Assembly: GCF_009834875.1 (NCBI RefSeq)
Contig: NZ_WVHT01000003.1
Span: forward strand, 434,001-498,000
DNA length: 64,000 nucleotides
Direction: 5' to 3'
Origin: Hufsiella arboris
Lineage (GTDB): Bacteria; Bacteroidota; Bacteroidia; Sphingobacteriales; Sphingobacteriaceae
Made by a program: the position numbers and the translations under genes. Below the pieces are notes generated by a model. It had not been told where the DNA came from and did not search any database. It saw nothing but the letters and a program-made list of their open reading frames with translations. The stretch's first letter is position 1, and each line of letters opens with the position of its first letter. This document shows, piece by piece, positions 31,661-47,377 of the stretch.

Positions 31661-32386
31661 ATGCTGCATAAAACCCGTGGCATCGTTTTCAAAACTACCG
31701 ATTACTCTGAGAGCAGCGTCGTTGTGCAAATTTTTACGGAAAAATTCGGGTTGCAATCGTACCTAATAAACGGCGTAAAAAAAAGTAAAAGCAAAATCAG
31801 GTATAACATGTTGCAGCCACTTCATTTACTGGACATGGTTGTATACAACAAACCGACGGGAAATATCCAACGGGTTGCCGAACTCAAAAACGATCCCGTA
31901 TTTCAAACCATTCCGTACGATATTATTAAAAGTTCACTAGCGATGTTTCTGAATGAAATGCTCTATAAAAGCGTCAAACAGCAATCAGCCGATGAACAGT
32001 TGTTTGAATACTTGTACACTTCGATTCATCTACTAGATAGAACAGAATCCGGGCTTCAAAATTTTCACCTGTATTTTTTGCTTCGGCTGACCAGGCACCT
32101 GGGCTTTTTTCCTGACCTTACTTTGGCCGGTAAGGCAAACTATTTTGACCTTAAGGACGGGGCTTTTACCGCCCATCCTTCTTCGCATAGTTTTGTATTG
32201 CAACAGCCGCACACCGGTTATTGGGCAGCGTTATTATCGCATAGCTTCGACAAGCTACACACAATAAAAATTGCCAATGCAGACCGCAGGGTTTTACTTT
32301 CAAAACTTATAGATTATTACCGCCTGCATGTAGAGAACATGGGCGAAATCAAATCTTTACAAGTTTTAGAAGAGATATTGAGTTAG
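31661..32386 (+). CDS. recO: DNA repair protein RecO
   Basis: RecO of the RecFOR pathway, which loads RecA on SSB-covered DNA. The protein starts MLHKTRGIVFKTTDYSESS, the standard OB-fold opening, with LQSYLINGVKKSKSK (two short blocks) following. The helical C-terminal domain lacks the CxxC zinc motif seen in some RecO proteins. The open frame extends 21 codons upstream into dgkA, but the ATG at 31661, one base after the dgkA stop, gives the family N-terminus and 241 residues. Its last 4 bases overlap the convergent receiver-protein gene. Confidence 0.94.
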   Translation: MLHKTRGIVFKTTDYSESSVVVQIFTEKFGLQSYLINGVKKSKSKIRYNMLQPLHLLDMVVYNKPTGNIQRVAELKNDPVFQTIPYDIIKSSLAMFLNEMLYKSVKQQSADEQLFEYLYTSIHLLDRTESGLQNFHLYFLLRLTRHLGFFPDLTLAGKANYFDLKDGAFTAHPSSHSFVLQQPHTGYWAALLSHSFDKLHTIKIANADRRVLLSKLIDYYRLHVENMGEIKSLQVLEEILS

Positions 32387-32748
32387 TCGTGTACCAGCAC
32401 GCTGTTTATTTTACTTTCGAGCTCCTGTATATCAAAAGGTTTCGGCAAAAATGTGTCAGCACCGGCTTGTTGCGCAAGTGTGTGAATATCGTTGTTGGCT
32501 GAAAAATAAACCACGGGAATTTGTTTTAAATCTGCTTCATTTTTCAAGGCTCTCGTCGCCACAATTCCGCCTGTATCCGGAATCCAGTTATCCATTAATA
32601 TCACATTAGGAGCAATGTCACGAACACGCTTCACAATGTCATTACAGTTTTCGGATGTAAAAACTTCCCACCCCTGTTCAGATAGTATATAACTGCATAT
32701 AGAAAGTATGTCTATATCGTCATCAAAAATAAGTATGCGGTTTGCCAT
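32383..32748 (-). CDS. Single-domain response regulator (receiver only)
   Basis: A 121-residue CheY-like receiver with no output domain. The acidic pocket is IFDDDID at the N-terminus, the phospho-acceptor Asp is in NVILMDNWIPDTGG, the switch Ser in VVYFSAN and the conserved Lys in FLPKPFD. It starts 9 bases after the giant kinase and is the last gene of the light-signalling cassette, so it is the natural phospho-acceptor of that kinase. Having no DNA-binding domain, it must act by protein contact or relay. Confidence 0.92.
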   Translation of the reverse strand: MANRILIFDDDIDILSICSYILSEQGWEVFTSENCNDIVKRVRDIAPNVILMDNWIPDTGGIVATRALKNEADLKQIPVVYFSANNDIHTLAQQAGADTFLPKPFDIQELESKINSVLVHD

Positions 32749-32757
32749 TATGTCTAT

Positions 32758-35700
32758 TTAGTTCTCAAGCTCGTTTCGTCCAAACGATTGAATTTGTATT
32801 GCCTGAGTTATTGCATTATCGCCAATTGGTATTGTAAACCAAAAAGTGGACCCTTTCCCCTCATTACTTTCTACACCGATCTTTCCGCCATGGCGTTCAA
32901 CAATCTCAGCGCAAATGTATAATCCCAAACCTAACCCAGAAAATTTTTGAGAAGATTCCTGAACCCGGAAAAATCTGTCAAAAATGTATGGTAGCTTGTC
33001 GGTCGGTATTCCAATCCCGAAATCTGTAACAGCGATTTTTAAATAATTGTTTTCGGGTTTTATATTTAAAATGATTTTTTTTGAGTCGGGCGAATATTTA
33101 ACGGCATTGGACAAGAAATTAATTATTACCTGCTCCAAGCGATGCTTATCGGCAGTTATATCAGCGTCAGCATCTCCTTCTATCGAAAATTCGTAATGCT
33201 CTGCCGTAACTTTGACCTGATCAAGGCAATCCATTATAACCGGTTTAAGTTTAAAATCTGACAAGTTAAGTTTCATTTTGCCGGCCTGGATCTTTGTCAC
33301 GTCGAGCAAATCTTCAATTAAACCAGTAAGTTTATCAACCTGCGAGTTAGCTTTTTCGATGAAATGATTTACCTGCCTGAGATCCCCATTCTTTTTTGTT
33401 AAACGCTCAACTATCTGTAAAGAAGCCTTCATACTGGTGATCGGAGTTTTCAGCTCATGGCTTGCGATACTCATAAATTCATCCTTCTTTCTCATTAAAA
33501 GCTTGGTAGCCTGCTGAGCCATTTCCTGCTCGGTAATGTCTGTGAAACTGCCAATGTAACCCTGGAAATTAGGATCGAATACCGGGTTGCTTTGGGCAAG
33601 CACCCATCTGTAAATACCGTCCTTACGTCGAAGTCTGAACTTTGACCGATAAACGATATGCTGTTCAAACGCCCTTTTAAATTTTTCGGTTTCAATTCCA
33701 CGATCATCCTGGTGATAACTTGCCCAAAAAGCCGAACCAAGGCTATCTTCAAAAGAAATACCGGTAAAATCAATCCACGGTTTGTTTACATAGGTTAAAC
33801 ATTGATTCTCATCAATCTTCCAGATCATAAATGGCGTTTGATCTGCAAGTTGTCTGAAACTCTCGCCAGTTATCTTCAATGCTTCGGTGATGATTTTTTG
33901 ATCATGAAAATCCGTACTTGTCCCCACCCACATAGAAACCATTGTCGTCTCGTCCTTTTGCAATATAGCACGCGTAATGTGCCAGCGGTATTTTCCGTCA
34001 GCAGCAAGCAAACGGTGCTCAACTTCATAGTTTGTGCCGGTTTGTACTGCGTTTTCCCAGCTATCTAATGTTTTTTGAAGATCATCAGAGTGAATTATCG
34101 TTACCCAGCTATCACCCAAAAGCTTATCTAGATTTAAGCCCGTATATTTTAAAAAGGTATCGTTATAATAATCGACAAACCCTGTTTCTGTAGCGGTCCA
34201 GATTTTTTGTGAAATTGAATTTGCCAGGTATTGAAACCGCTTTTGCAATGATGCTTCTTTTCGCTGCATCTGCTTTTGTTCGGTGATGTCAATTATATAT
34301 GTTACGTTAGCTTTTGATTCTTCATTGAGCACAGTAGCCCCGAGCATCACATCTATGCGGCTTCCGTCTTTCCGAAAATATTGCTTCTCAAACGGAGGGC
34401 AAACTCCTGTGGTTTCAAGCAACATAACAGCGTGTTCAGATGCTGGTATAAATTCTTTCGGTGTAATATTTTCCCAGTTTAGGCTGCCGTCTTCAAGCTC
34501 CTGCCGTGTATATCCCAGCATATTCAACAGCACGTCGTTACATTCAACTATTTGCCCGTTTACTTTGGTAAACGCCATACCAATGAGATTCGATTCAAAC
34601 ACGCGCCTGAACTGAAGCTCACTGGTATGAAGCTTCATTTCAGTTTCCTTTAGCTTGGAGATATCAAGCATTGAGCCTATCATCCTAAAAGGCGTTCCGA
34701 ATTCATCATGTGAAATAAGGGCCCGGTCGAGAATAACGAGGTAATTCCCGCTAGCGGTCTGAAAACGGAACTCTTGCTCCCATTTGTTCTGCCCGTTATT
34801 TATCGTTGCGTTGAGGTTCTCTAACACTTTTGGTCTGTCGTCCGGGTGAATTTTGCTCCTCCAAAAAGCGAATGTCTTAATTTGATCCGTATCCTCATAT
34901 CCAAAAATTGAATTGAAGCGCTGGCTCCACCAGGTGGTATTATTGGTTAGATCACGATCCCAGATAACTTCGTTGGTTGCCTGCGAAACCATTATGAAAC
35001 GCTCCTGGCTTTTTACCAGCTCCTGCGTCCGATCGGTTACACGTGTTTCCAAATCCTGATTCAGTACTTTCAAGCTTTCACGTGCCGAAATCAGTTCGTT
35101 ATAATTTTTCCTTAAACGCTGTTCTGCAACCCTGCGCTGCGTAACATCTGTTAGCGTTGCCACGAAACCATCCAGCATTTTAACCGCAACCAATTCAAAC
35201 CATTTTCCCACACTGCCAAGGCTTATTTCACCCTGATACGGTTCATTCTTCTCTACGACTTTAACATAGTGCTCAAACAGCCCGTTAACTGTAAGTTCCG
35301 AAACGTCATTTTTTAGTTTGATATTATCGTTATCTGGTAAAAACTCCTTAGATGCTTCATTGCTGGTCACCAGCCTGAAATCGACTATTTTATTTTCGTG
35401 GTTGCGAATGCTTTCCAATACCAACACGCCACTCACGCTAGCGTTAAACACTGAATTAACGATGTTATTAAGCTGTTTTATCTGACTAACGTCGACAAAG
35501 GTGACAACAAGTCCGTCGATTGATTTATCCTGACGGACATAAGGCATAATGCGCATAATGCTTGCCTTTCCATCAGGAAGATTGATCTCACGCTCGATTT
35601 CCTTTCCTGTCTGCTGAACGTTTTTAATATCCTCGGTAAAATCTTCCGACTTAATATTATTTGAAATGTGGCTAATCGGCCGACCAATATCCGACTCGAT

Positions 35701-37956
35701 CAGGTTTACCATTTTTACTGCTGCCGGATTAAATTTACGTATCTGCAGATCAGAATCTAGGAATATCTGGCCAATGTATGTGCTTTTAAAATAGTTGTTC
35801 AGGTCGTCGTTCAGATTGATAAGCTCGCGGATTTTAAGTTGATGTTCCGTGTTGAGCGTATGCAATTCTTCGTTCAACGATTGCAGCTCCTCATTACTTG
35901 ATTGTAATTCTTCATTTGATGAAAGCAGCTCTTCATTGCTCGACTGCAACTCTTCATTAGTTGTCTCCAGGCTTTCGACGGCTAATTGCAGGTTGCTGCG
36001 TGTTTCATTGAGCTCTGATTCAAGCTCCTGGACGTATTGAGTTTGATCTGCTCCAACAGCATAATCTCCTTCTTCCAGACTTGTTTCAAACGATGGCTGC
36101 TTATTTTCACCTAAAACAACCAACGTAAGCTGGGTATCCGGGTTGACAGGCTTTACAACTACCGAGATGAAGTTGTCTTTATCAAGATTTTTAACCCTTA
36201 CACTTTTTAAATATACTTTTTGCCGCTCTTTCCAGACCTTACGTATAGCAGTATTTAACGCTACAGATAATTCCGGCGGAACCATTTTAAGAATATTGAG
36301 ATTCAGTTTCTGTTGTGGCAATGAAAGAAATCTGCCAAAATCGCCAAGTGATTCCTTGATCTCGTAATTCGAATCAATAAAAAAACTTACAAATCCGAAA
36401 TCTTCTAAGATCGTCTGGTTAAATTCACTAGTTATCGAAGACACTACATGAGAGCTTGGACTAACCCGGGGCGGAATAATCGGCCGTTGCAAAGTTGCAG
36501 GCGCAGAAATTAATTCCCGGTTTTCATATTTAAAATTTCCTGTCTTTTTATAAATCTTCCATTTTCCATCGATCTCCTGAAATGCAGTTTTTAAATGCGA
36601 AGCCGTTTCACTTGGGCCGAGAAACAAAAACCCGCCTTTATTAAGTGAAAAATGAAATGTTGAAAGTATTTTTTGCTGCAGTATTGAATTCATGTAAATC
36701 AGCATATTGCGGCAGGTAACTAAATCATTTTTAATGAAGGGAGGATTTTTGGCTATATCATGAACTGCGAACACAATATTTTTTCTGATACCGGGAATAG
36801 CAGAGTAAGTTTTACCATTTCTAATGAAATATTTATTAAGTAAATCCTGGCTGATGTTTTTATCAATTGCTAAAGGAAACATATTTTTTGCAGCGGCGTC
36901 GATATTTGCAGGATCGAGATCCGTTGCAAATATTTTAAAAGTTATCCGGCTCCTTTTCTTTTCAAGGAACTCATTCAGCAGAATGGCGATTGAATAGGCC
37001 TCTTCCCCGGTGCTGCAAGCCGTTACCCAAATTTTAATGTATTCGTCTTTTTGCTTTTGAGCTAAAATATCCGGGAAAACGCTTTCTTCTAAAACTTTAA
37101 AAGCAGCCGGATCTCTAAAAAACTGAGTAACGTTTATAAGGAAGTCCTCACCCATTTCCTGAGCATCATTTGGCGATTGTTGAATCGATTCAATAAGTTC
37201 CTCAAGTGATTTAAATCCTTTCTGAGTAATTCGACGGCTAATTCGCCTGATGATTGTTGGTGTTTTATAGTACTGAAAATCATACCCGCTATGATCATAA
37301 ATCAGTTTAAAAAGCATGTTTAAAAGAGCTTCATCAACTTTTCCGCCGTTTAAGATATGCCCCGGAGCCTCCTTTACATAATTAAAAATCTCATTGGGAA
37401 TCATTTCAGGCGATAATATCAGGTCTGCTACGCCGGCGTTGATTGCGCTTAACGGCATTCCGTCAAATTTTGAAGTTGCCGGCTCCTGGACAATAACGAG
37501 GCCGCCTTGCTTTTTTATCATTTCGGCACCTATTGTACCATCGGTACCTGTACCTGATAAAATCATGGCGATCGCCCGGCTTCCTGCGTCTTTCGCCAAC
37601 GACGAAAAAAATCGGTTGATCGCTGTGTTCGGCCCTTTTTTGTCTTTTTTTTCTGAGAGAATGATCCGGCCATCATGTATCACAATCAGCTTATTATTCG
37701 GGATCACATAAACACATTCACGCTGAACGGTCATCCCGTTTTCGGCTTCGAAAACCCGCATGTGTGTATGTTTAGCAATCAGCTCTACCAATAAGCTTTT
37801 ATAGTCGGAAGACAAATGCTGAATAATTACAAAAGAAAAGGCGTCATGCTGTGGCATGTGATCGAAAAACTCATGAATTGCTTCCAGTCCGCCGGCGGAA
37901 GCCCCAATAGCAACTATATAATGTTTCTTTCCACGAGTGGCCTCAGCTTTAGCCAT
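32758..37956 (-). CDS. CheB-CheR-coiled coil-multi-PAS histidine kinase
   Basis: A 1732-residue fusion. Residues about 10-185 form a CheB methylesterase (GASAGG serine, IIQHLSSD histidine, SGTGTDGT aspartate, so the triad is complete). About 200-470 is a CheR methyltransferase (NVTQFFRDP, ACSTGEEAYS SAM site, FATDLD, TCRNMLIYM). At about 640-710 a long coiled coil contains five near-identical heptads. About six PAS-like domains follow between 715 and 1485, then HisKA (SIASHELKTP, near 1499) and HATPase (NFLSNAVKYSP, DFGIGIP, GLGLGLYI). No transmembrane segment, so it is cytoplasmic. I start at ATG 37956, directly after the phytochrome stop; a start at 37989 would overlap that gene by 32 bases. 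The phytochrome is the probable input. Confidence 0.93.
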   Translation of the reverse strand: MAKAEATRGKKHYIVAIGASAGGLEAIHEFFDHMPQHDAFSFVIIQHLSSDYKSLLVELIAKHTHMRVFEAENGMTVQRECVYVIPNNKLIVIHDGRIILSEKKDKKGPNTAINRFFSSLAKDAGSRAIAMILSGTGTDGTIGAEMIKKQGGLVIVQEPATSKFDGMPLSAINAGVADLILSPEMIPNEIFNYVKEAPGHILNGGKVDEALLNMLFKLIYDHSGYDFQYYKTPTIIRRISRRITQKGFKSLEELIESIQQSPNDAQEMGEDFLINVTQFFRDPAAFKVLEESVFPDILAQKQKDEYIKIWVTACSTGEEAYSIAILLNEFLEKKRSRITFKIFATDLDPANIDAAAKNMFPLAIDKNISQDLLNKYFIRNGKTYSAIPGIRKNIVFAVHDIAKNPPFIKNDLVTCRNMLIYMNSILQQKILSTFHFSLNKGGFLFLGPSETASHLKTAFQEIDGKWKIYKKTGNFKYENRELISAPATLQRPIIPPRVSPSSHVVSSITSEFNQTILEDFGFVSFFIDSNYEIKESLGDFGRFLSLPQQKLNLNILKMVPPELSVALNTAIRKVWKERQKVYLKSVRVKNLDKDNFISVVVKPVNPDTQLTLVVLGENKQPSFETSLEEGDYAVGADQTQYVQELESELNETRSNLQLAVESLETTNEELQSSNEELLSSNEELQSSNEELQSLNEELHTLNTEHQLKIRELINLNDDLNNYFKSTYIGQIFLDSDLQIRKFNPAAVKMVNLIESDIGRPISHISNNIKSEDFTEDIKNVQQTGKEIEREINLPDGKASIMRIMPYVRQDKSIDGLVVTFVDVSQIKQLNNIVNSVFNASVSGVLVLESIRNHENKIVDFRLVTSNEASKEFLPDNDNIKLKNDVSELTVNGLFEHYVKVVEKNEPYQGEISLGSVGKWFELVAVKMLDGFVATLTDVTQRRVAEQRLRKNYNELISARESLKVLNQDLETRVTDRTQELVKSQERFIMVSQATNEVIWDRDLTNNTTWWSQRFNSIFGYEDTDQIKTFAFWRSKIHPDDRPKVLENLNATINNGQNKWEQEFRFQTASGNYLVILDRALISHDEFGTPFRMIGSMLDISKLKETEMKLHTSELQFRRVFESNLIGMAFTKVNGQIVECNDVLLNMLGYTRQELEDGSLNWENITPKEFIPASEHAVMLLETTGVCPPFEKQYFRKDGSRIDVMLGATVLNEESKANVTYIIDITEQKQMQRKEASLQKRFQYLANSISQKIWTATETGFVDYYNDTFLKYTGLNLDKLLGDSWVTIIHSDDLQKTLDSWENAVQTGTNYEVEHRLLAADGKYRWHITRAILQKDETTMVSMWVGTSTDFHDQKIITEALKITGESFRQLADQTPFMIWKIDENQCLTYVNKPWIDFTGISFEDSLGSAFWASYHQDDRGIETEKFKRAFEQHIVYRSKFRLRRKDGIYRWVLAQSNPVFDPNFQGYIGSFTDITEQEMAQQATKLLMRKKDEFMSIASHELKTPITSMKASLQIVERLTKKNGDLRQVNHFIEKANSQVDKLTGLIEDLLDVTKIQAGKMKLNLSDFKLKPVIMDCLDQVKVTAEHYEFSIEGDADADITADKHRLEQVIINFLSNAVKYSPDSKKIILNIKPENNYLKIAVTDFGIGIPTDKLPYIFDRFFRVQESSQKFSGLGLGLYICAEIVERHGGKIGVESNEGKGSTFWFTIPIGDNAITQAIQIQSFGRNELEN
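35861..35965 (-). repeat. Five tandem 21-base heptad-coding repeats inside the CheB/CheR kinase
   Basis: Units at 35861, 35882, 35903, 35924 and 35945, each encoding a variant of SSNEELQ/SLNEELH/TTNEELQ. They build the coiled coil between CheR and the first PAS domain. Third-position drift between units suggests an old, maintained repeat, not a recent expansion. Confidence 0.85.
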
Positions 37957-37957
37957 A

Positions 37958-39463
37958 TTAATTATTAAGGTATCTTGTTGTGTATTCAAATAAAAAACTG
38001 CGAAAATCTTCTGCCGATGAAAGCTCTTCTTCTGACCAGGGAAGGGATGTTTGCTTTACAGTTTCTTTCCAAACCTGAAACGAGTTCCGCGGATGATAAT
38101 TTTTCCCGTCAGGTTCAAAATTTATTGCCTGATTCGGATTACCGCCCCATTCAATATCCTGGATAACTTCTTTCCGAAATCCGATAATATAATCGCCCCG
38201 ATCGGCATTTATCGGCAAAACGATAACGCCGCTCGCGACTTCGGCATAGTCCTCTGCATTCTCGTAAATGGCCGATAAATTTATTTCGCTAAAAGTTTTG
38301 TCGATATTTTTAGCTTGTAACCAATAACTGAGATTCTCCATGTCCTGGACAGATGGTGTAATACCAATGCTGTTTATTTTACCCTTAAAAGCTATACAAA
38401 CTCCATCGGCACGAAGCAAATCGCCTACAGTAACTTCATTTAAAAGCAGACCCTTCACCAAATCATTTTCTGTGTAAATATTATCAATTAATCTCTCACG
38501 CGTTTGTTGCAAAGACGACAAAAATTCAAACTTCTTTTTATTTATAGCAGACGCTATCTTACCGGAAATCACCATCGATAACAGCTCAAATGACGAGCAA
38601 ATTTCGTAATTCAGATATTTTGGAGTCTTGTTATGGCACGAGATCAGGCCCCATAATTTTTCATCTTTTATTATCCTGATTGAAAGAGAAGCCGCCACAT
38701 CCATATTCTTAAGATATTCTACATGTACCGACGCCACGCTCCGCATATTACAGTCAGAAAGATCGAGGAATGACATGTTATGGGGATTTATAATCGGGAA
38801 CAGCTTTATAGGCTGATAGTCACGGTCGGGTATAAAGCGGTAAGCATTGTTCTGGTACATCGCTCTTGCCTGCTTCGGAATATCTGATGCTGGAAACTTA
38901 TGGCCAAGATAGGGGTGCATTCCTTCTTCATGCTTTTCGGCAACTACCGTTCCGTTCCAGTCCTGGTCAAACTGATACATCAAAACGCGGTCAAAACCTG
39001 AAAGATTTTTCAGTTCAGTTACGGCAATTTCGCAAACTTTTTCAACGGAATTACCAAGCTCGATTTTAGCAAAAATATACTTCAGCTGCTGGTAGAAATC
39101 TATGAACTTTCGTGGATTACTGTACCTGTTTTTTTCCACTTCAATTAGCAGGAGATCGTTTTTGCTATGTACAAGTGCGAGGTGCTCATTTCCGGCGATA
39201 GTTATTGCTATCGGAACTTTATCGCGAATGCCTTCGTTATATTTTTGCAACAGCACTTCCACCTGAGGAATAAAGCGTCCCAACTGACTGTTAATAATTT
39301 CTGCAAGTGGTTTATCAAAAAGCTCAGTGACATTTTCACTTACCTGGATAATTTTCATTTCGCTGGCTTCAACAATCAACAGATAACCATATGGTTGAAT
39401 CATATTCGTTTGATTGAGCGGCAAGCGACCGCAGAAATCGGAATCGTAATTAGTTTTGTTCAT
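37958..39463 (-). CDS. Bacteriophytochrome photosensory core (PAS-GAF-PHY) without kinase domain
   Basis: Biliverdin-binding red/far-red photoreceptor core of 501 residues. A cysteine at residue 11 stands before LPLNQTNMIQPYG, the spacing at which bacteriophytochromes attach biliverdin. The GAF domain has KFPASDIPKQAR (the PASDIP aspartate), RSVASVHVEYLKNM and GLISCHNKTP (the two chromophore histidines). The PHY tongue shows WGGNP and HPRNSF (WxG and PRxSF). The protein ends after PHY with no histidine kinase. Start chosen at ATG 39463; the frame opens 14 codons earlier, inside the heme oxygenase gene. It overlaps that gene by 14 bases and ends 1 base before the CheB/CheR kinase, which probably supplies the output. 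Confidence 0.92.
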   Translation of the reverse strand: MNKTNYDSDFCGRLPLNQTNMIQPYGYLLIVEASEMKIIQVSENVTELFDKPLAEIINSQLGRFIPQVEVLLQKYNEGIRDKVPIAITIAGNEHLALVHSKNDLLLIEVEKNRYSNPRKFIDFYQQLKYIFAKIELGNSVEKVCEIAVTELKNLSGFDRVLMYQFDQDWNGTVVAEKHEEGMHPYLGHKFPASDIPKQARAMYQNNAYRFIPDRDYQPIKLFPIINPHNMSFLDLSDCNMRSVASVHVEYLKNMDVAASLSIRIIKDEKLWGLISCHNKTPKYLNYEICSSFELLSMVISGKIASAINKKKFEFLSSLQQTRERLIDNIYTENDLVKGLLLNEVTVGDLLRADGVCIAFKGKINSIGITPSVQDMENLSYWLQAKNIDKTFSEINLSAIYENAEDYAEVASGVIVLPINADRGDYIIGFRKEVIQDIEWGGNPNQAINFEPDGKNYHPRNSFQVWKETVKQTSLPWSEEELSSAEDFRSFLFEYTTRYLNN

Positions 39464-40010
39464 CAATCCAAGCCTTAAAGCAAGCAAACGTATCTTTTGC
39501 AGCATGTAGCACCTCGCCTTGCTGTGAATCAGTTAAATCCTGATCCAACAATAATTTAAACGAGTTCCACATATGGAAAGTATTCTCTCCATAGCTATTA
39601 AAAAATGCGGTGCCGCGATTGGAGCCTAATTTGTCGACGATCATTTTGCTGATCACCTTACCGCCAAGCGTTGAACCTTCAAGTACATATAACGCGCCCA
39701 AACATTGTTCATGAGTACTTATTTCGGGCAATTTTGTGCAAACTGTAAGCTCTGTAAAGGCACCGCGCGACAACTTTGCGAGATCATCTTCCAGCAAGGC
39801 TGTTTTACGCCTGTGCGGATAATCTGGCATCCGGTGTAAATCAACACTTTTATCGGTTAAAAGTTCAATTGGTTTTAGATAACCCAGAAAATTCTTGATT
39901 ATTAGGAGATAGTCTTCTTCTTCCTCTATCGCTTTAATACGTCGAACTAATGCCTTTTCGAGGGATTGATGTTCTGTTTCAGTAAACTCTTTTAATTGTG
40001 CACTAAGCAT
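39450..40010 (-). CDS. Biliverdin-producing heme oxygenase (BphO-like)
   Basis: Heme oxygenase family protein of 186 residues, starting MLSAQLKEFTETEHQSLEKA, where the histidine of EHQSLE is the expected proximal heme ligand. LGALYVLEGSTLGGKVISK is the family distal-helix block, with the GSTLGG glycines that contact heme. It should open heme to biliverdin, the phytochrome chromophore. It is the first gene of the cassette, overlapping the phytochrome gene by 14 bases, so translation is probably coupled. An ATG 4 codons upstream is less likely. No strong promoter is visible upstream. Confidence 0.92.
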   Translation of the reverse strand: MLSAQLKEFTETEHQSLEKALVRRIKAIEEEEDYLLIIKNFLGYLKPIELLTDKSVDLHRMPDYPHRRKTALLEDDLAKLSRGAFTELTVCTKLPEISTHEQCLGALYVLEGSTLGGKVISKMIVDKLGSNRGTAFFNSYGENTFHMWNSFKLLLDQDLTDSQQGEVLHAAKDTFACFKAWIDEQN

Positions 40011-41174: not shown

Positions 41175-43187
41175 ATGTCTCAACAAACAGACACGTCAAT
41201 AGACCTTTTAAGCGTCAATGCAATCCGTTTCCTGTCTACCGATATGGTTCAAAAAGCAAATTCCGGCCACCCGGGCTTGCCGCTTGGTGCCGCGCCGATG
41301 GCTTATGTGCTTTGGAGCAAATTCTTAAGATTTAACGCTACTGATCCGCATTGGCCTAACCGCGACCGCTTTGTACTTTCGGCCGGGCATGGCTCGGCAT
41401 TACTTTACAGCCTGTTGCATCTTTACGGCTTTGGACTAACACTGGAAGATGTAAAAAATTTCAGGCAGCTAGGCTCGAAAACTCCCGGCCACCCCGAATC
41501 GGTTTTAACACCAGGCGTCGAAGTTACTACAGGTCCGCTTGGGCAGGGATTCGGAAATGGCGTCGGCATTGCTATCGCGGAAGCCTTTTTAGCAGCAAAG
41601 TTCAATAAAGAAGGATTTGAAATTACTAGCCATTACACTTATGGTATAGTAAGCGATGGCGACCTAATGGAAGGCCTTGCTTCGGAAGCAGCATCGCTGG
41701 CAGGCCACCTAAAGCTTGGGAAGCTAATTTATTTATATGACGATAACAGCATCTCTTTAGATGGGCCGACCAGTCTGGCTTTTACAGAAGATGTAACTGC
41801 CCGATTCAACTCGTACGGATGGCACACAACAACCGTAGAGGACGGCAACGACCTGGCGGCAATTGAACAAGCCATAAGCGTAGCGCAGGCTGAGACCGAA
41901 AAACCATCGCTGATTTCTGTTAAAACGATCATCGGCTACGGTAGTCCGCAGGAAGGAACCAGTAAGGTTCATGGTAATCCACTGGGCGAGGAAAACCTGA
42001 AGAAAACCAAGGAGTTTTTTGGATGGGATCCTGACAAAACATTTTACGTACCGGCAGAAGTCAGCGAACACTTGTTAGAGCAAGGTAAAAAAGGCGTGTC
42101 TTTACAAAATGAATGGAACACACTTGTTGCGGCATATAGCAAAAGCTATCCCGAAGAAGGCGTGCAATTACAATTTGGATTTAAAGGAGAGCTTCCCGAT
42201 GACTGGGATAAGGATTTTCCAACATTTGAAATTGATAAACCATTAGCAACACGCCAGGCATCGGGAATGGCGCTGGAAGCACTGAAAAAAAATATTCCAT
42301 GGATAATTGGCGGCTCGGCCGACCTTGCCAGTTCTAATGAAACGCCAAAAGAAGGAGACGTAAGTTTCCAGCCTGGAAATTATCAAAATACGAATATTTG
42401 GTTCGGCGTACGGGAACATGCTATGGGTGCAGCTTTAAATGGTATGGCTTCACACGAAGGCGTAAAAGTTTACGGGGGCACATTTTTAACTTTTTCTGAT
42501 TATATGCGTGGCGCCATCAGGCTTGCAGCTTTAACTGAAGCCCCTGTGACCTATATCTTCACTCATGACAGCATAGGACTTGGTGAAGATGGGCCGACAC
42601 ACCAACCAGTTGAACACGTTACAGCATTACGAACGATTCCAAACTTAACTGTAATTCGCCCGGCCGACGCTTACGAAACAGCCGAAGCTTGGAAAGTGGC
42701 GATAAACCGAAAAAAAGGACCAGTCGCGCTTATTCTGTCGCGACAGAAGCTGCCAATTCTTGATCAGGGCAAATATGCTCCGGCAAGTAACCTCAGTAAA
42801 GGTGCTTATGTTCTTAGCGATTCGGAAGGTACTCCTGACGTGATATTAGTTGCCACCGGCTCTGAAGTTCAGCTTGTTTTAGGGGCTCAGGAGAAATTAA
42901 AACAAGACGGAATCAAAGCCCGCGTGGTAAGCATGCCAACCTGGGAACTATTTGACAAACAAGATCAAAACTACAAAGACAGCGTTTTCCCACCACAGAT
43001 TCGTAAGAGAGTGGCAGTAGAAGCGGGCGTTACAATCGGCTGGTACAAATACGTAACATCTGATGGCGTTGTAATCGGACTAGACAGGTTTGGAGATTCA
43101 GGCCCCGGAGAAGAAGTTTTTAAACATTTTGGCTTTACCATTGATAACGTTTATGAGAAGGCAAAAGCTCTTGTTAACAAGATATAA
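41175..43187 (+). CDS. tkt: Transketolase
   Basis: Thiamine-diphosphate enzyme of the non-oxidative pentose phosphate pathway, moving two-carbon ketol units. The full-length 670-residue form has [38 protein letters not shown] (two parts), the TPP motif GDGDLMEG-like [13 protein letters not shown] and [14 protein letters not shown]. It also shows [14 protein letters not shown] and the C-terminal [10 protein letters not shown]. It is the first gene of tkt-rpiB-gnd-zwf-pgl. Its TAA overlaps the ATG of rpiB by one base (TAATG), so translation is coupled. Confidence 0.97.
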
Positions 43188-43648
43188 TGAAAATTGGAAT
43201 TGCTGCCGATCATGCCGGCTTTGAAATAAAACAAGCACTTGTCAAATTATTGCATGATGCCGGATATGATGTTAAAGATTATGGCGCTCATGAATTCAAT
43301 GCTATTGACGATTATCCTGATATCGTTCTCCCGCTTGGCGAGGCGATAGCCAAGGGAGAAGTTAGTCGTGGAATAGCAGTATGTGGCAGTGGAGTTGGCG
43401 TTTCTGTAGCCGCTAACAAAATACAAGGAGTCCGTGCTGCGCTAATTACGGAAACATATTCGGCTCATCAGGGCGTTGAACACGACGATATGAATCTCAT
43501 TTGCATTGGTGGCCGTGTTTTAGGTCAATCGCTTATATGGGATATCGTTCGCGCTTTTCTTGATGCAAAGTATGATGGCGGTGAACGTTTTCAGCGTCGC
43601 CTTGACAAAGTTATTGCATTAGAAAAAGCCAATTTCAATAAACCTTAA
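43187..43648 (+). CDS. rpiB: Ribose 5-phosphate isomerase B (second copy)
   Basis: RpiB-family isomerase of 153 residues. Motifs are AADHAGFEIKQ, the cysteine loop VCGSGVGVSVAANK, the histidine in EHDDMN and the C-terminal GGERFQRRLDKV. Differences from the copy at 990-1421 (CGSANG, GGRHQNRV) show that the two are diverged paralogs and not a recent duplication. Placed inside the pentose phosphate operon and coupled to tkt by a one-base overlap, this is the copy most likely dedicated to carbon flux between ribulose 5-phosphate and ribose 5-phosphate. Confidence 0.94.
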   Translation: MKIGIAADHAGFEIKQALVKLLHDAGYDVKDYGAHEFNAIDDYPDIVLPLGEAIAKGEVSRGIAVCGSGVGVSVAANKIQGVRAALITETYSAHQGVEHDDMNLICIGGRVLGQSLIWDIVRAFLDAKYDGGERFQRRLDKVIALEKANFNKP

Positions 43649-43704
43649 ATAAAAGTGATGTAGATTTACCGGCATAATCACGCATATAAATCTAAATTTA
43701 AAAC

Positions 43705-45114
43705 ATGGAATTACACGATTTTGGCATAGTTGGCCTGGGTGTTATGGGAAGAAACCTTCTTTTAAATATGGCAGATCATCATTTTGCTGTTGCCGGCCTG
43801 GACCTCGATACCGAAAAAGTCGCATCTTTAAAGACCGAAGCATCAGAAGGACATCGCGTTCATGGTACTAATTCGGCTGAAGAATTTGCCGGCATGCTTA
43901 AAACGCCAAGAGCTATCATGTTACTCGTTCCTGCCGGAAAACCCGTTGATTCGGCTATTCATAGTCTTTTACCGTTTCTCGAAAGCGGGGATATTATTAT
44001 CGATGGCGGAAATTCTCAATTTACCGATACCGACCGCCGCGTTACTGAGCTCGCTGAAAAGAACATTCATTTCTTCGGAATGGGTATCTCCGGTGGCGAA
44101 AAAGGCGCTCGATTCGGACCAAGCATGATGCCGGGCGGAAATAAAGAAGCCTATGAAAGGTTGCGTCCGATCTTCGAGGCAGTTGCTGCCAAAGTAAACG
44201 GCGAACCTTGTGTTGAATATTTAGGAAACGGATCTGCCGGCCATTATGTAAAAATGGTTCACAATGGTATCGAATATGGCATTATGCAGCTTATCTCAGA
44301 AGCTTACGATTTAATGAAACGCGGGCTTCGTTTAAGCGATGAAAAAATTCAGCAAACCTTCAGCGATTGGGATCAAAGTGAACTTAAGTCATTCCTGATA
44401 GAAATTACTGCCGAGGTGCTGAACAAGGTCGATGACGAAACCGGCAAACACCTTGTCAATCTCATCTCCGACCGTGCGCGAGCAAAAGGTACAGGTAAAT
44501 GGACATCGCAAAATGCAATGGATTTACAGGTTCCGGTACCTGTAATTGATGCCGCAGTGATGATGCGTGATATATCTACCTACAAAAATGAACGTATCGA
44601 AGCTGAAAAAGCATTTCCATTTGCTATACCTACCGAATATGCAGATAACGCTGACGACATCATTGATTCGATAAAACATGCGCTGTATTTCGCTATGTTG
44701 ACAACGTATGCACAGGGCCTGGCTCAATTGAAGGTAGCATCCAACACATATAATTATGACCTCCGATTGGAAGAAGTTGCCAAAATATGGCGGGGCGGAT
44801 GTATCATACGAGCCGTTTGCCTGGAAGATTTCCGCAAAGCTTATTCAAGGAATCCTGATCTAGCCAACATACTTCTGGACAAGGAAATTGGAGAACAGGT
44901 CATTGCAAGAGAAAAAGCAATACGTTCAGTAGTTAAGCTGGGAGTTGATATGGGAATTCCTTTGGCCGCGCTTATGTCGTCACTGGCATATTTCGATTCA
45001 TATCGCAGCGCACAACTTCCGACAAATTTAATTCAGGCGCAGCGGGATTATTTTGGTGCTCATCAATATGAGAGAACTGACCGGGAAGGAATTTTTCATA
45101 CTCACTGGGACTAA
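43705..45114 (+). CDS. gnd: 6-phosphogluconate dehydrogenase, decarboxylating
   Basis: Oxidises 6-phosphogluconate to ribulose 5-phosphate and CO2. The 469-residue long-form enzyme has the Rossmann opening IVGLGVMGRNLLLNMADHH, GGNSQFTDTDRR and the signature GMGISGGEKGARFGPSMMPGG. The catalytic GSAGHYVKMVHNGIEYG follows and the C-terminal THWD completes it. The long (about 470 residue), dimeric class normally uses NADP. Third gene of the pentose phosphate operon, between rpiB and zwf. Confidence 0.97.
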   Translation: MELHDFGIVGLGVMGRNLLLNMADHHFAVAGLDLDTEKVASLKTEASEGHRVHGTNSAEEFAGMLKTPRAIMLLVPAGKPVDSAIHSLLPFLESGDIIIDGGNSQFTDTDRRVTELAEKNIHFFGMGISGGEKGARFGPSMMPGGNKEAYERLRPIFEAVAAKVNGEPCVEYLGNGSAGHYVKMVHNGIEYGIMQLISEAYDLMKRGLRLSDEKIQQTFSDWDQSELKSFLIEITAEVLNKVDDETGKHLVNLISDRARAKGTGKWTSQNAMDLQVPVPVIDAAVMMRDISTYKNERIEAEKAFPFAIPTEYADNADDIIDSIKHALYFAMLTTYAQGLAQLKVASNTYNYDLRLEEVAKIWRGGCIIRAVCLEDFRKAYSRNPDLANILLDKEIGEQVIAREKAIRSVVKLGVDMGIPLAALMSSLAYFDSYRSAQLPTNLIQAQRDYFGAHQYERTDREGIFHTHWD

Positions 45115-45136
45115 CCTTATTAAGCATTAGAAATTT

Positions 45137-46645
45137 ATGAAAACCGGCAATACAGCAACTCCAGCAATCATTGTAATCTTTGGTGGCACCGGCGATCTTG
45201 CAAAAAGAAAACTTATACCTGCATTTTATCACCTGTTCCTCGAAGGATGGCTGCCAGAAAAGTTTGAAATAATCGGCCTCGGCAGAACCGAGCTTGACGA
45301 CAAATCATATCGCGATCGTTTATTGGAAGGTTTGAAAGAATTTTCAAGAAGCGGAGATCCGGACAATGAGAAATGGGAAAAATTCAGCCAGTCTGTCACT
45401 TATTTCCAGTCGAACATTAACGACGCTGCTTCTTACACACAATTGGCAAAAAAAATCACTGCCCTCGATAAAGAATGGGGAAGCCGGGCAAACAGACTAT
45501 TTTATCTTTCTGTGGCGCCGCAATTTATTGAAGCAGCAACAACCAATATAAACAAGGCGTCGCTCGCCGACGAACCAAAAGCGGATAGAATTATCATCGA
45601 AAAACCGTTCGGCCACAATAAAGAAACAGCGATTGCTCTGAACAAACTCCTTACCAGCACCTTCCAGGAAGAGCAGATTTACCGGATTGATCACTACCTC
45701 GGAAAAGAAACCGTTCAGAATATCCTTGCATTTCGTTTCGCTAACGCGCTTTTTGAACCCGTGTGGAACAGAAACTATATCGATTTCGTGCAAATTACCG
45801 TTGCCGAGCAGGTTGGTGTTGAGGATCGCGCAGACTATTATGACACGTCGGGTGCATTGCGGGATATGATTCAAAATCACCTTTTGCAAATATTATGCAT
45901 GGTTGCCATGGAAGCGCCCGTTTCCTTTGAGGCTGAAGAGATAAGAAATCGCAAAGTAGATGTGCTGCGAGCCGTACGCAGGCTGAAGCCTGACGAAGTA
46001 CATAAATATGCCGTACGAGGGCAATATGGTCCAGGGTGGCTAGAAGGCAAAAAAGTTCCTGGCTACAGACAGGAAGAGAATGTTGACCCGCAATCAAATA
46101 CCGAAACATTTGCCGCAATCAAATTTTATCTTGATAACTGGCGCTGGCAAGATGTTCCATTCTACCTGCGAACAGGAAAAAGAATGCAGGAAAAAACGTC
46201 GACCATATCAATCCAATTCAGGCCCGTTCCTCATTCCACTTTCTCTGGAAGGCAGGCAGACAGCTTAATGCCTAACAGGCTGACCATTAACATACAGCCT
46301 CAAATGGATATTCGTCTGCGTTTTACAACAAAGCGGCCCGGCCTTGAAATGGATCTTAACCCAGCCGATATGATCTTTGATTACGATACTTGCTCCACTC
46401 AAACACCGGAGGCATATGAAACACTTCTGCTTGACGCCATGCAGGGTGATGCCACTTTGTTTATGCGGTCAGACCAGGTTGAAGAGGCATGGGATGTAAT
46501 TACGCCTATTTTGGAAACCTGGGAATCACGACCATCGCTTGATTTTCCGAATTATGCAGCAGGCTCATGGGGACCGGAAAATTCGGAAGCTTTAATAGCG
46601 AGAGAAGGACATGTTTGGGCATTAAACGCTCACTTAATCGATTAA
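45137..46645 (+). CDS. zwf: Glucose-6-phosphate 1-dehydrogenase
   Basis: First enzyme of the oxidative pentose phosphate pathway. The 502-residue protein has the coenzyme fingerprint [19 protein letters not shown] (GxxGDLA), the substrate site [13 protein letters not shown] with the catalytic histidine, EKPFGHN, and the LRTGKRM block near residue 350. The start at 45137 follows gnd by 22 bases. Cofactor preference cannot be fixed from motifs alone. Confidence 0.97.
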
Positions 46646-46654
46646 CAGCACACT

Positions 46655-47377
46655 ATGATCCGAATTTTTGATAACACTGAAGACTTAAGCCGCGCGGCTG
46701 CAGATTTGTTTTTACAGGCCGCGACAGAATCAATCAGCCAAAACGGACAGTTTAATGTCGCATTAACCGGTGGATCGTCTCCTGTAAAACTCTATCAATT
46801 ATTGTCCCAGCCCCCATACAGCGAACAGATTCAATGGGATAAAGTGTTTGTATTCTGGGGAGATGAACGTTGGGTTCCGCTTGACGACGAACGTAGTAAT
46901 GCAAAAATGGCCTATGAAACGTTGTTGAATCATTTGCCGGTCAAACCGGCAGGGGTTTTTCCAATGTGGGCCGATAAAATGCAACCGGCGGAATTCGCTG
47001 AACGCTACGAACAAACGCTTAAACTTCACCTTGGCAGTAATCCCCAGTTTGATCTGATTCTTTTAGGAATGGGTGACGACGGCCATACTGCTTCACTGTT
47101 TCCCGGAACGGATGTGTTACGTGAAGAGTCAAAATTAGTAGACGCCTATTATCTCGTTCCACAGGATATGTTTCGCGTTACATTAACTGCGCCGGTTATT
47201 AACCAGGCAAAGCATATCGCGGTTATCACTTACGGTGAAAAAAAAACGAATGCTTTGTATGAAGTTTTGGAAGGCGAGAAAAATCCGGAGAAGTACCCTT
47301 CGCAACTACTTAATCCCAGAGGCGGAGACATAACCTGGTTTGTCGACAAAGAAGCGGCTGCCAAGTTATCTTCATAG
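46655..47377 (+). CDS. pgl: 6-phosphogluconolactonase
   Basis: DevB/NagB-fold hydrolase (240 residues) that opens 6-phosphogluconolactone made by Zwf. Recognised by ALTGGSSPVKLYQLL, WGDERWVPLDDERSN and LLGMGDDGHTASLFPG. It follows zwf by 9 bases and completes the oxidative branch in the operon. It ends 15 bases before the convergent epimerase gene; no terminator hairpin is visible in that gap. Confidence 0.96.
   Translation: MIRIFDNTEDLSRAAADLFLQAATESISQNGQFNVALTGGSSPVKLYQLLSQPPYSEQIQWDKVFVFWGDERWVPLDDERSNAKMAYETLLNHLPVKPAGVFPMWADKMQPAEFAERYEQTLKLHLGSNPQFDLILLGMGDDGHTASLFPGTDVLREESKLVDAYYLVPQDMFRVTLTAPVINQAKHIAVITYGEKKTNALYEVLEGEKNPEKYPSQLLNPRGGDITWFVDKEAAAKLSS

Follow-up and report, generated by a model that had tools for sequence, protein, structure and literature searches.

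The window analysed here is a stretch of 64,000 nucleotides of the Hufsiella arboris genome (contig NZ_WVHT01000003.1, positions 434,001 to 498,000), and between its positions 32383 and 40010 four minus-strand genes lie tightly packed, with the third of them encoding a protein of several distinct parts:

39450..40010, minus strand: heme oxygenase, 186 aa (Pfam PF01126, E 3.5e-14)
37958..39463, minus strand: kinase-less bacteriophytochrome, PAS-GAF-PHY, 501 aa (PF08446, PF01590, PF00360 and solved homologues)
32758..37956, minus strand: CheB-CheR-PAS-coil-six PAS-HisKA-HATPase_c kinase, 1732 aa (Pfam, solved CheB and CheR homologues, conservation)
37372..37920, minus strand: its CheB methylesterase domain, aa 13-195 (catalytic S20, H47 and D139 are invariant; it carries no receiver domain)
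36547..37326, minus strand: its CheR methyltransferase, aa 211-470 (with invariant SAM-binding motifs)
35782..36045, minus strand: its long helix, aa 638-725 (AlphaFold), with five N-E-E-L heptads at aa 667-701; candidate methylation substrate
32824..33486, minus strand: its histidine kinase core, aa 1491-1711 (HisKA with His1500, and HATPase_c; Pfam)
32383..32748, minus strand: single-domain receiver, 121 aa (PF00072, Response_reg, E 3.9e-19)

The close packing claimed in a preliminary description of this DNA is borne out: heme oxygenase and phytochrome genes overlap by 14 bases, a single base separates the phytochrome from the CheB-CheR kinase, and nine bases separate the kinase from the receiver. 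A promoter scan of the locus found no excess over shuffles. Judged by its sequence, the role of the heme oxygenase, which a genome search identified as the only one in this host, is synthesis of the biliverdin chromophore, while the receiver is likely to be the phosphoacceptor. Adjoining the light cassette, at window positions 41175-47377, genes that by sequence alone are transketolase, rpiB, gnd, zwf and pgl are grouped as a pentose-phosphate cluster.

The phytochrome itself is best described as a photosensor that stops short. Pfam finds PAS_2, GAF and PHY in that order and no domain after PHY, whose match stops at residue 495 of 501, so that the chain ends six residues later and the C-terminal output module of canonical histidine-kinase bacteriophytochromes is absent; the protein is a member of the phytochrome superfamily, and not one of that canonical class. 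Solved phytochromes align along nearly its full length (the best is 9jry, 'FiDCB', E 1e-102), and Cys11, the PASDIP motif with Asp194, His247, His277 and the tongue motifs W439GG and P458RxSF are all in place, as the preliminary description had claimed. Across 98 distinct kinase-less phytochromes (the set is defined below), the chromophore Cys, the PASDIP Asp, the first His, and the Tyr, Arg and Ser around the chromophore are present in every one, the second chromophore His in 95, and the PHY tongue motifs in 92-98, so each of the claimed features is kept in 92-98 of 98 relatives. The end point is equally stable: in 91 of the 98 the chain stops 11-14 residues beyond its final conserved Arg. 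An ordinary 747-aa, kinase-bearing phytochrome is also found in the host (L021:3532-5775, G000:C6), without a heme oxygenase gene next to it; with a single such enzyme in the genome, this second phytochrome probably relies on that of the cassette for its biliverdin.

How general is the arrangement? When 401 genomes from the host's family were searched for the PHY domain, the proteins came in two main sizes, those with a kinase at about 740-760 aa and those lacking one at about 497-559 aa, and among the matches listed all 35 short phytochromes are followed by a CheB-CheR-coil gene on the same strand, with the kinase core present wherever the contig extends far enough. The same gene likewise follows the short phytochrome in the host and in four loci from our first survey. 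In a sample of 395 genomes from across the phylum, kinase-bearing phytochromes occur in several families, and the one kinase-less phytochrome outside the host's family is again followed by CheB-CheR. Independently, 84,980 species genomes were scanned with two N-terminal motifs of the kinase-less phytochrome clade as query, which gave 80 loci with organism names, and all 78 with readable flanks have a CheB-CheR kinase as neighbour; an earlier scan of the genome collection with a single protein as query had returned no loci, and it was the alignment-based scan that did. By family, 43 of the named loci are from Sphingobacteriaceae, 23 from Hymenobacteraceae, 8 from Chitinophagaceae and 2 from Cytophagaceae, and the rest from Fulvivirgaceae, Chryseotaleaceae and others.

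Merging these sources without duplicates leaves the 98 kinase-less phytochromes of Bacteroidota, two of them at contig ends, and in all 96 readable loci a CheB-CheR kinase is next door, 95 by an automatic rule and the last, Sporocytophaga L139, with its kinase gene upstream and split in the assembly; no kinase-less phytochrome lacking such a neighbour was met among them. By comparison, neither CheB nor CheR lies within 1.5 kb of any of 58 kinase-bearing phytochromes (Fisher p ~1e-43, a value that ignores relatedness). Both Sporocytophaga loci have the order reversed, with the kinase upstream of the phytochrome, so the pair outlives rearrangement. An arrangement found in every readable relative is not chance, and the kinase-less phytochrome with its CheB-CheR kinase is a conserved genomic unit. 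Conservation of the four-gene order, which the preliminary description had proposed to look for, holds for this pair and fails for the outer genes: 24 of the 98 loci have a heme oxygenase next door in the same orientation, and in 13 the next gene (by BLAST) is a receiver, making both of them optional partners outside the invariant core. Heme oxygenase is nonetheless encoded in 25 of 26 genomes tested, the exception being G033, which is also without a PHY protein. As a side observation, one carrier (G030) has a second cassette (L019:9634-12651, G030:C23) that is without heme oxygenase and has the gene of a MASE3-domain histidine kinase nine bases upstream of its phytochrome. A literature search that covered open-access text turned up no account of the phytochrome/CheB-CheR pairing, which does not by itself establish priority.

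The history of the two genes says a good deal about what they may be doing together. Kinase-less phytochromes form one clade apart from the kinase-bearing ones (FastTree support 100), and pairwise distances between phytochromes correlate with those between the CheB-CheR parts at r 0.88, a value reached in none of 2000 permutations, although species history contributes to it. It could be asked whether the short phytochrome is simply a truncated gene on its way out, given that the kinase of other phytochromes is missing from it. However, a single clade spread over several families, with a fixed end point and invariant chromophore and tongue residues, is a very strange form of decay, and the true article looks quite different: in G033 and G006 a CheB-CheR kinase and receiver stand in similar surroundings with the phytochrome gone, and translated BLAST recovers end fragments only, namely the front half of the heme oxygenase and the last 19 phytochrome residues in G033, and roughly the first 45 and last 20 phytochrome residues in G006. 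We have rejected decay on the unity of the clade and the conservation of its residues, and would give it next to no chance.

These two genomes are natural deletion experiments of a sort. The losses occurred in place (L036:8572-8947 and L037:3777-3916), with differing break points and the kinase gene left intact. The orphaned kinases are full length and nested within the phytochrome-linked clade, and neither has a clear excess of changes over its sister that would point to relaxed selection (79 versus 71, and 179 versus 142). A photoreceptor deleted while its kinase is kept intact means that light cannot be the kinase's only input; the CheB-CheR kinase is useful without light, which is one input among several. 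It might then be argued that the two genes are co-transcribed and yet act separately, the phytochrome on an unlinked partner and the kinase in response to something else, a reading that draws on the survival of the kinase in both lineages and on a kinase family that is widespread without phytochromes. Against this stand the 96 of 96 and 0 of 58 counts, reversed order included, and the fact that in readable loci the kinase-less phytochrome is never found apart from its kinase, and we consider separate action to be quite improbable. The preliminary description suggested that output is delegated to the separate protein and that light may control methylation and phosphorylation together. Its reading is supported in part: the conserved split pair and the output-less phytochrome, which retains its photochemistry residues, speak strongly for a split light-signalling unit, with the amendment that light is not the sole input of the kinase, while light control of methylation would be a further, hypothetical step.

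What, then, does the partner protein bring? Pfam identifies CheB, CheR_N, CheR, six PAS domains after the coil, HisKA and HATPase_c, and so CheB, CheR, N-E-E-L coil, PAS and kinase domains sit on a single chain with catalytic residues present. AlphaFold, applied to residues 1-840, predicts one more PAS-like fold, the seventh of the chain, at about 523-618 in the stretch that separates CheR from the coil, and draws the coil as one unbroken helix from 638 to 725, in a model (mean pLDDT 77, pTM 0.37) whose domain placement is not trustworthy. Alignment to a solved CheB gives S20, H47 and D139 as the catalytic residues, with Ala in place of Thr directly after the serine. All 93 of 93 full-length partners keep the CheB Ser/His/Asp triad, the main CheR motifs and the kinase His, N and G boxes without change; the methylesterase and methyltransferase sites, earlier described as apparently intact, do look so, with the exchange of that Thr for Ala as the one qualification.

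These conservation figures invite another reading, that light mainly gates the methylation half, with the phytochrome binding CheB/CheR and the kinase merely following. Indeed, CheB and CheR are the best-conserved enzyme domains of the partner proteins (means of 0.75 and 0.66, versus 0.55-0.58 for the kinase core), and the Glu pairs of the coil are invariant. Yet CheB-CheR and the coil are also retained in phytochrome-free relatives, other phyla included, and the kinase is intact in every full-length partner, which together lead us to think this reading unlikely. The coil was also considered as a docking site for the phytochrome, and this too is unlikely, because the coil is conserved where there is no phytochrome to dock. 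No clear docking region emerged from residues conserved only in phytochrome-linked kinases, nor from relaxed selection after phytochrome loss.

CheR and CheB act by reversible methylation on chemoreceptors, and the preliminary description had remarked that no chemotaxis receptor lies nearby. That observation can be extended a long way: in the whole host genome, which is 99.97% complete, we found neither an MCP (PF00015) nor a CheW (PF01584), and of 25 genomes tested 22 are without an MCP match and 23 without CheW. Two carriers, G030 and G298, do have both, and they offer the main encouragement for the idea that CheB-CheR serves a chemotaxis or phototaxis pathway by methylating ordinary chemoreceptors; with MCP and CheW absent from the host and from most genomes tested, the idea is rejected for the host, barring a receptor unlike PF00015, and is very improbable overall. 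In a host without MCP or CheW, CheB and CheR must have another substrate, and the three CheR domains of this genome all lie within or beside sensor kinases. For example, at L252:6616-11993 (G000:C45) an RsbK-like CHASE3-HAMP-GAF kinase with three receivers has CheR and CheB downstream of it as separate genes, which makes this a second unit of kinase, CheR and CheB, here unfused, in a genome with no MCPs. L040:8783-14578 (G000:C7) encodes a CheB-CheR-PAS-GAF-HisKA_3 kinase of 1931 aa whose N-E-E-L coil is looser; its gene is preceded by a stand-alone one for a 343-aa CheB-like protein.

The best candidate for that substrate, going by sequence features, is the helix immediately after CheR (aa 638-725). 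No other stretch of the protein is as well conserved (mean 0.89). It carries five heptads of the form N-E-E-L-x-S/T-x; with the register set by Leu at d, Asn takes position a and the Glu pair takes b and c, positions that face the solvent in a two-stranded coiled coil. The Glu pairs are invariant in 93 of 93 phytochrome-linked proteins, and the exposed b, c and f positions of these heptads have a conservation of 1.00, whereas a second coil in the same proteins has the usual pattern (a 0.92 and d 0.90, versus b 0.57 and f 0.53). Among 18 phytochrome-free CheB-CheR proteins, of which three are alphaproteobacterial, conservation is 0.94-1.00 for the Glu pairs in the last four heptads and generally lower at the core positions of the same heptads (a 0.67-0.94, d 0.50-0.89). 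Exposed Glu-Glu heptads beside a methyltransferase and a methylesterase would resemble the methylation site one might expect, and light-coupled self-methylation is plausible on these grounds. The coil does not always come with CheR: of 28 loci picked up by a DNA pattern of two N-E-E-L repeats, 22 have CheR upstream on the same chain, and most of the remaining six have a shorter or looser coil. At L217 (G483), two neighbouring open frames contain the N-E-E-L coil, and CheR was not found upstream in the same frame.

Comparison with known systems helps to place the cassette. It is like bacteriophytochrome two-component systems (BphP, BphO and a response regulator) in its PAS-GAF-PHY architecture, biliverdin Cys and PHY tongue, and in having heme oxygenase and receiver genes alongside; it differs in that BphP has its own histidine kinase, while here the photosensor chain is without one and the kinase is a separate CheB-CheR-PAS protein. 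Phytochrome-free CheB-CheR-PAS proteins (for example in G011, G012 and G025, with shorter CheB-CheR proteins in Azospirillum, Sinorhizobium and Sulfitobacter) have the same order of CheB, CheR, N-E-E-L coil and PAS, with coil Glu pairs conserved too, but no kinase-less phytochrome adjacent and ~33-42% identity to the window's kinase. In Bacillus cereus, the CheR-type protein RsbM methylates the signalling helix of the histidine kinase RsbK and not a chemoreceptor (PMC4574943). RsbM is encoded by its own gene and has no methylesterase paired with it, and RsbK has a CHASE3-HAMP-GAF input and no link to light (PMC4574943), whereas in the cassette CheR, CheB and the candidate helix share one chain and the kinase is paired with a phytochrome; a layout of the RsbK/RsbM type, with a separate CheR gene beside a CHASE3-HAMP-GAF kinase, is not what we see here, as CheR is fused.

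We therefore favour, with a probability of about 0.7, a split two-component system for red light, whose phytochrome would control the CheB-CheR kinase in trans; as a genomic unit the split system is real, and very probably it works as a signalling unit too. Heme oxygenase would supply biliverdin, which the output-less phytochrome would bind and with it toggle between Pr and Pfr, acting in trans on the kinase encoded by the adjacent gene and shifting its activity. That shift would in turn change how far the small receiver is phosphorylated, or some other receiver in loci that lack its gene, and the kinase's PAS domains would integrate further signals. CheR and CheB may also tune the kinase's own sensitivity by reversible methylation of the exposed Glu pairs of the helix, a step that we put forward tentatively. 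With similar reserve, as a possibility that we would bet against, CheB, CheR and coil could be a single-chain adaptation device fed by the phytochrome, in which CheR would methylate, and CheB demethylate or deamidate, the five Glu-Glu pairs and perhaps an invariant Gln, resetting kinase gain with no chemoreceptor involved, so that a light sensor would adapt to background light as chemoreceptors do to attractant.

If the split system operates in this way, it would represent a recurrent Bacteroidota wiring of red-light sensing, in which the photoreceptor is a free-standing input part and not the front of its own kinase. As a natural two-protein pair, it makes control of a kinase in trans by a phytochrome measurable, and the glutamate-rich helix, as the likely substrate, makes the role of the widespread CheB-CheR-PAS proteins testable in bacteria that have no chemoreceptors.
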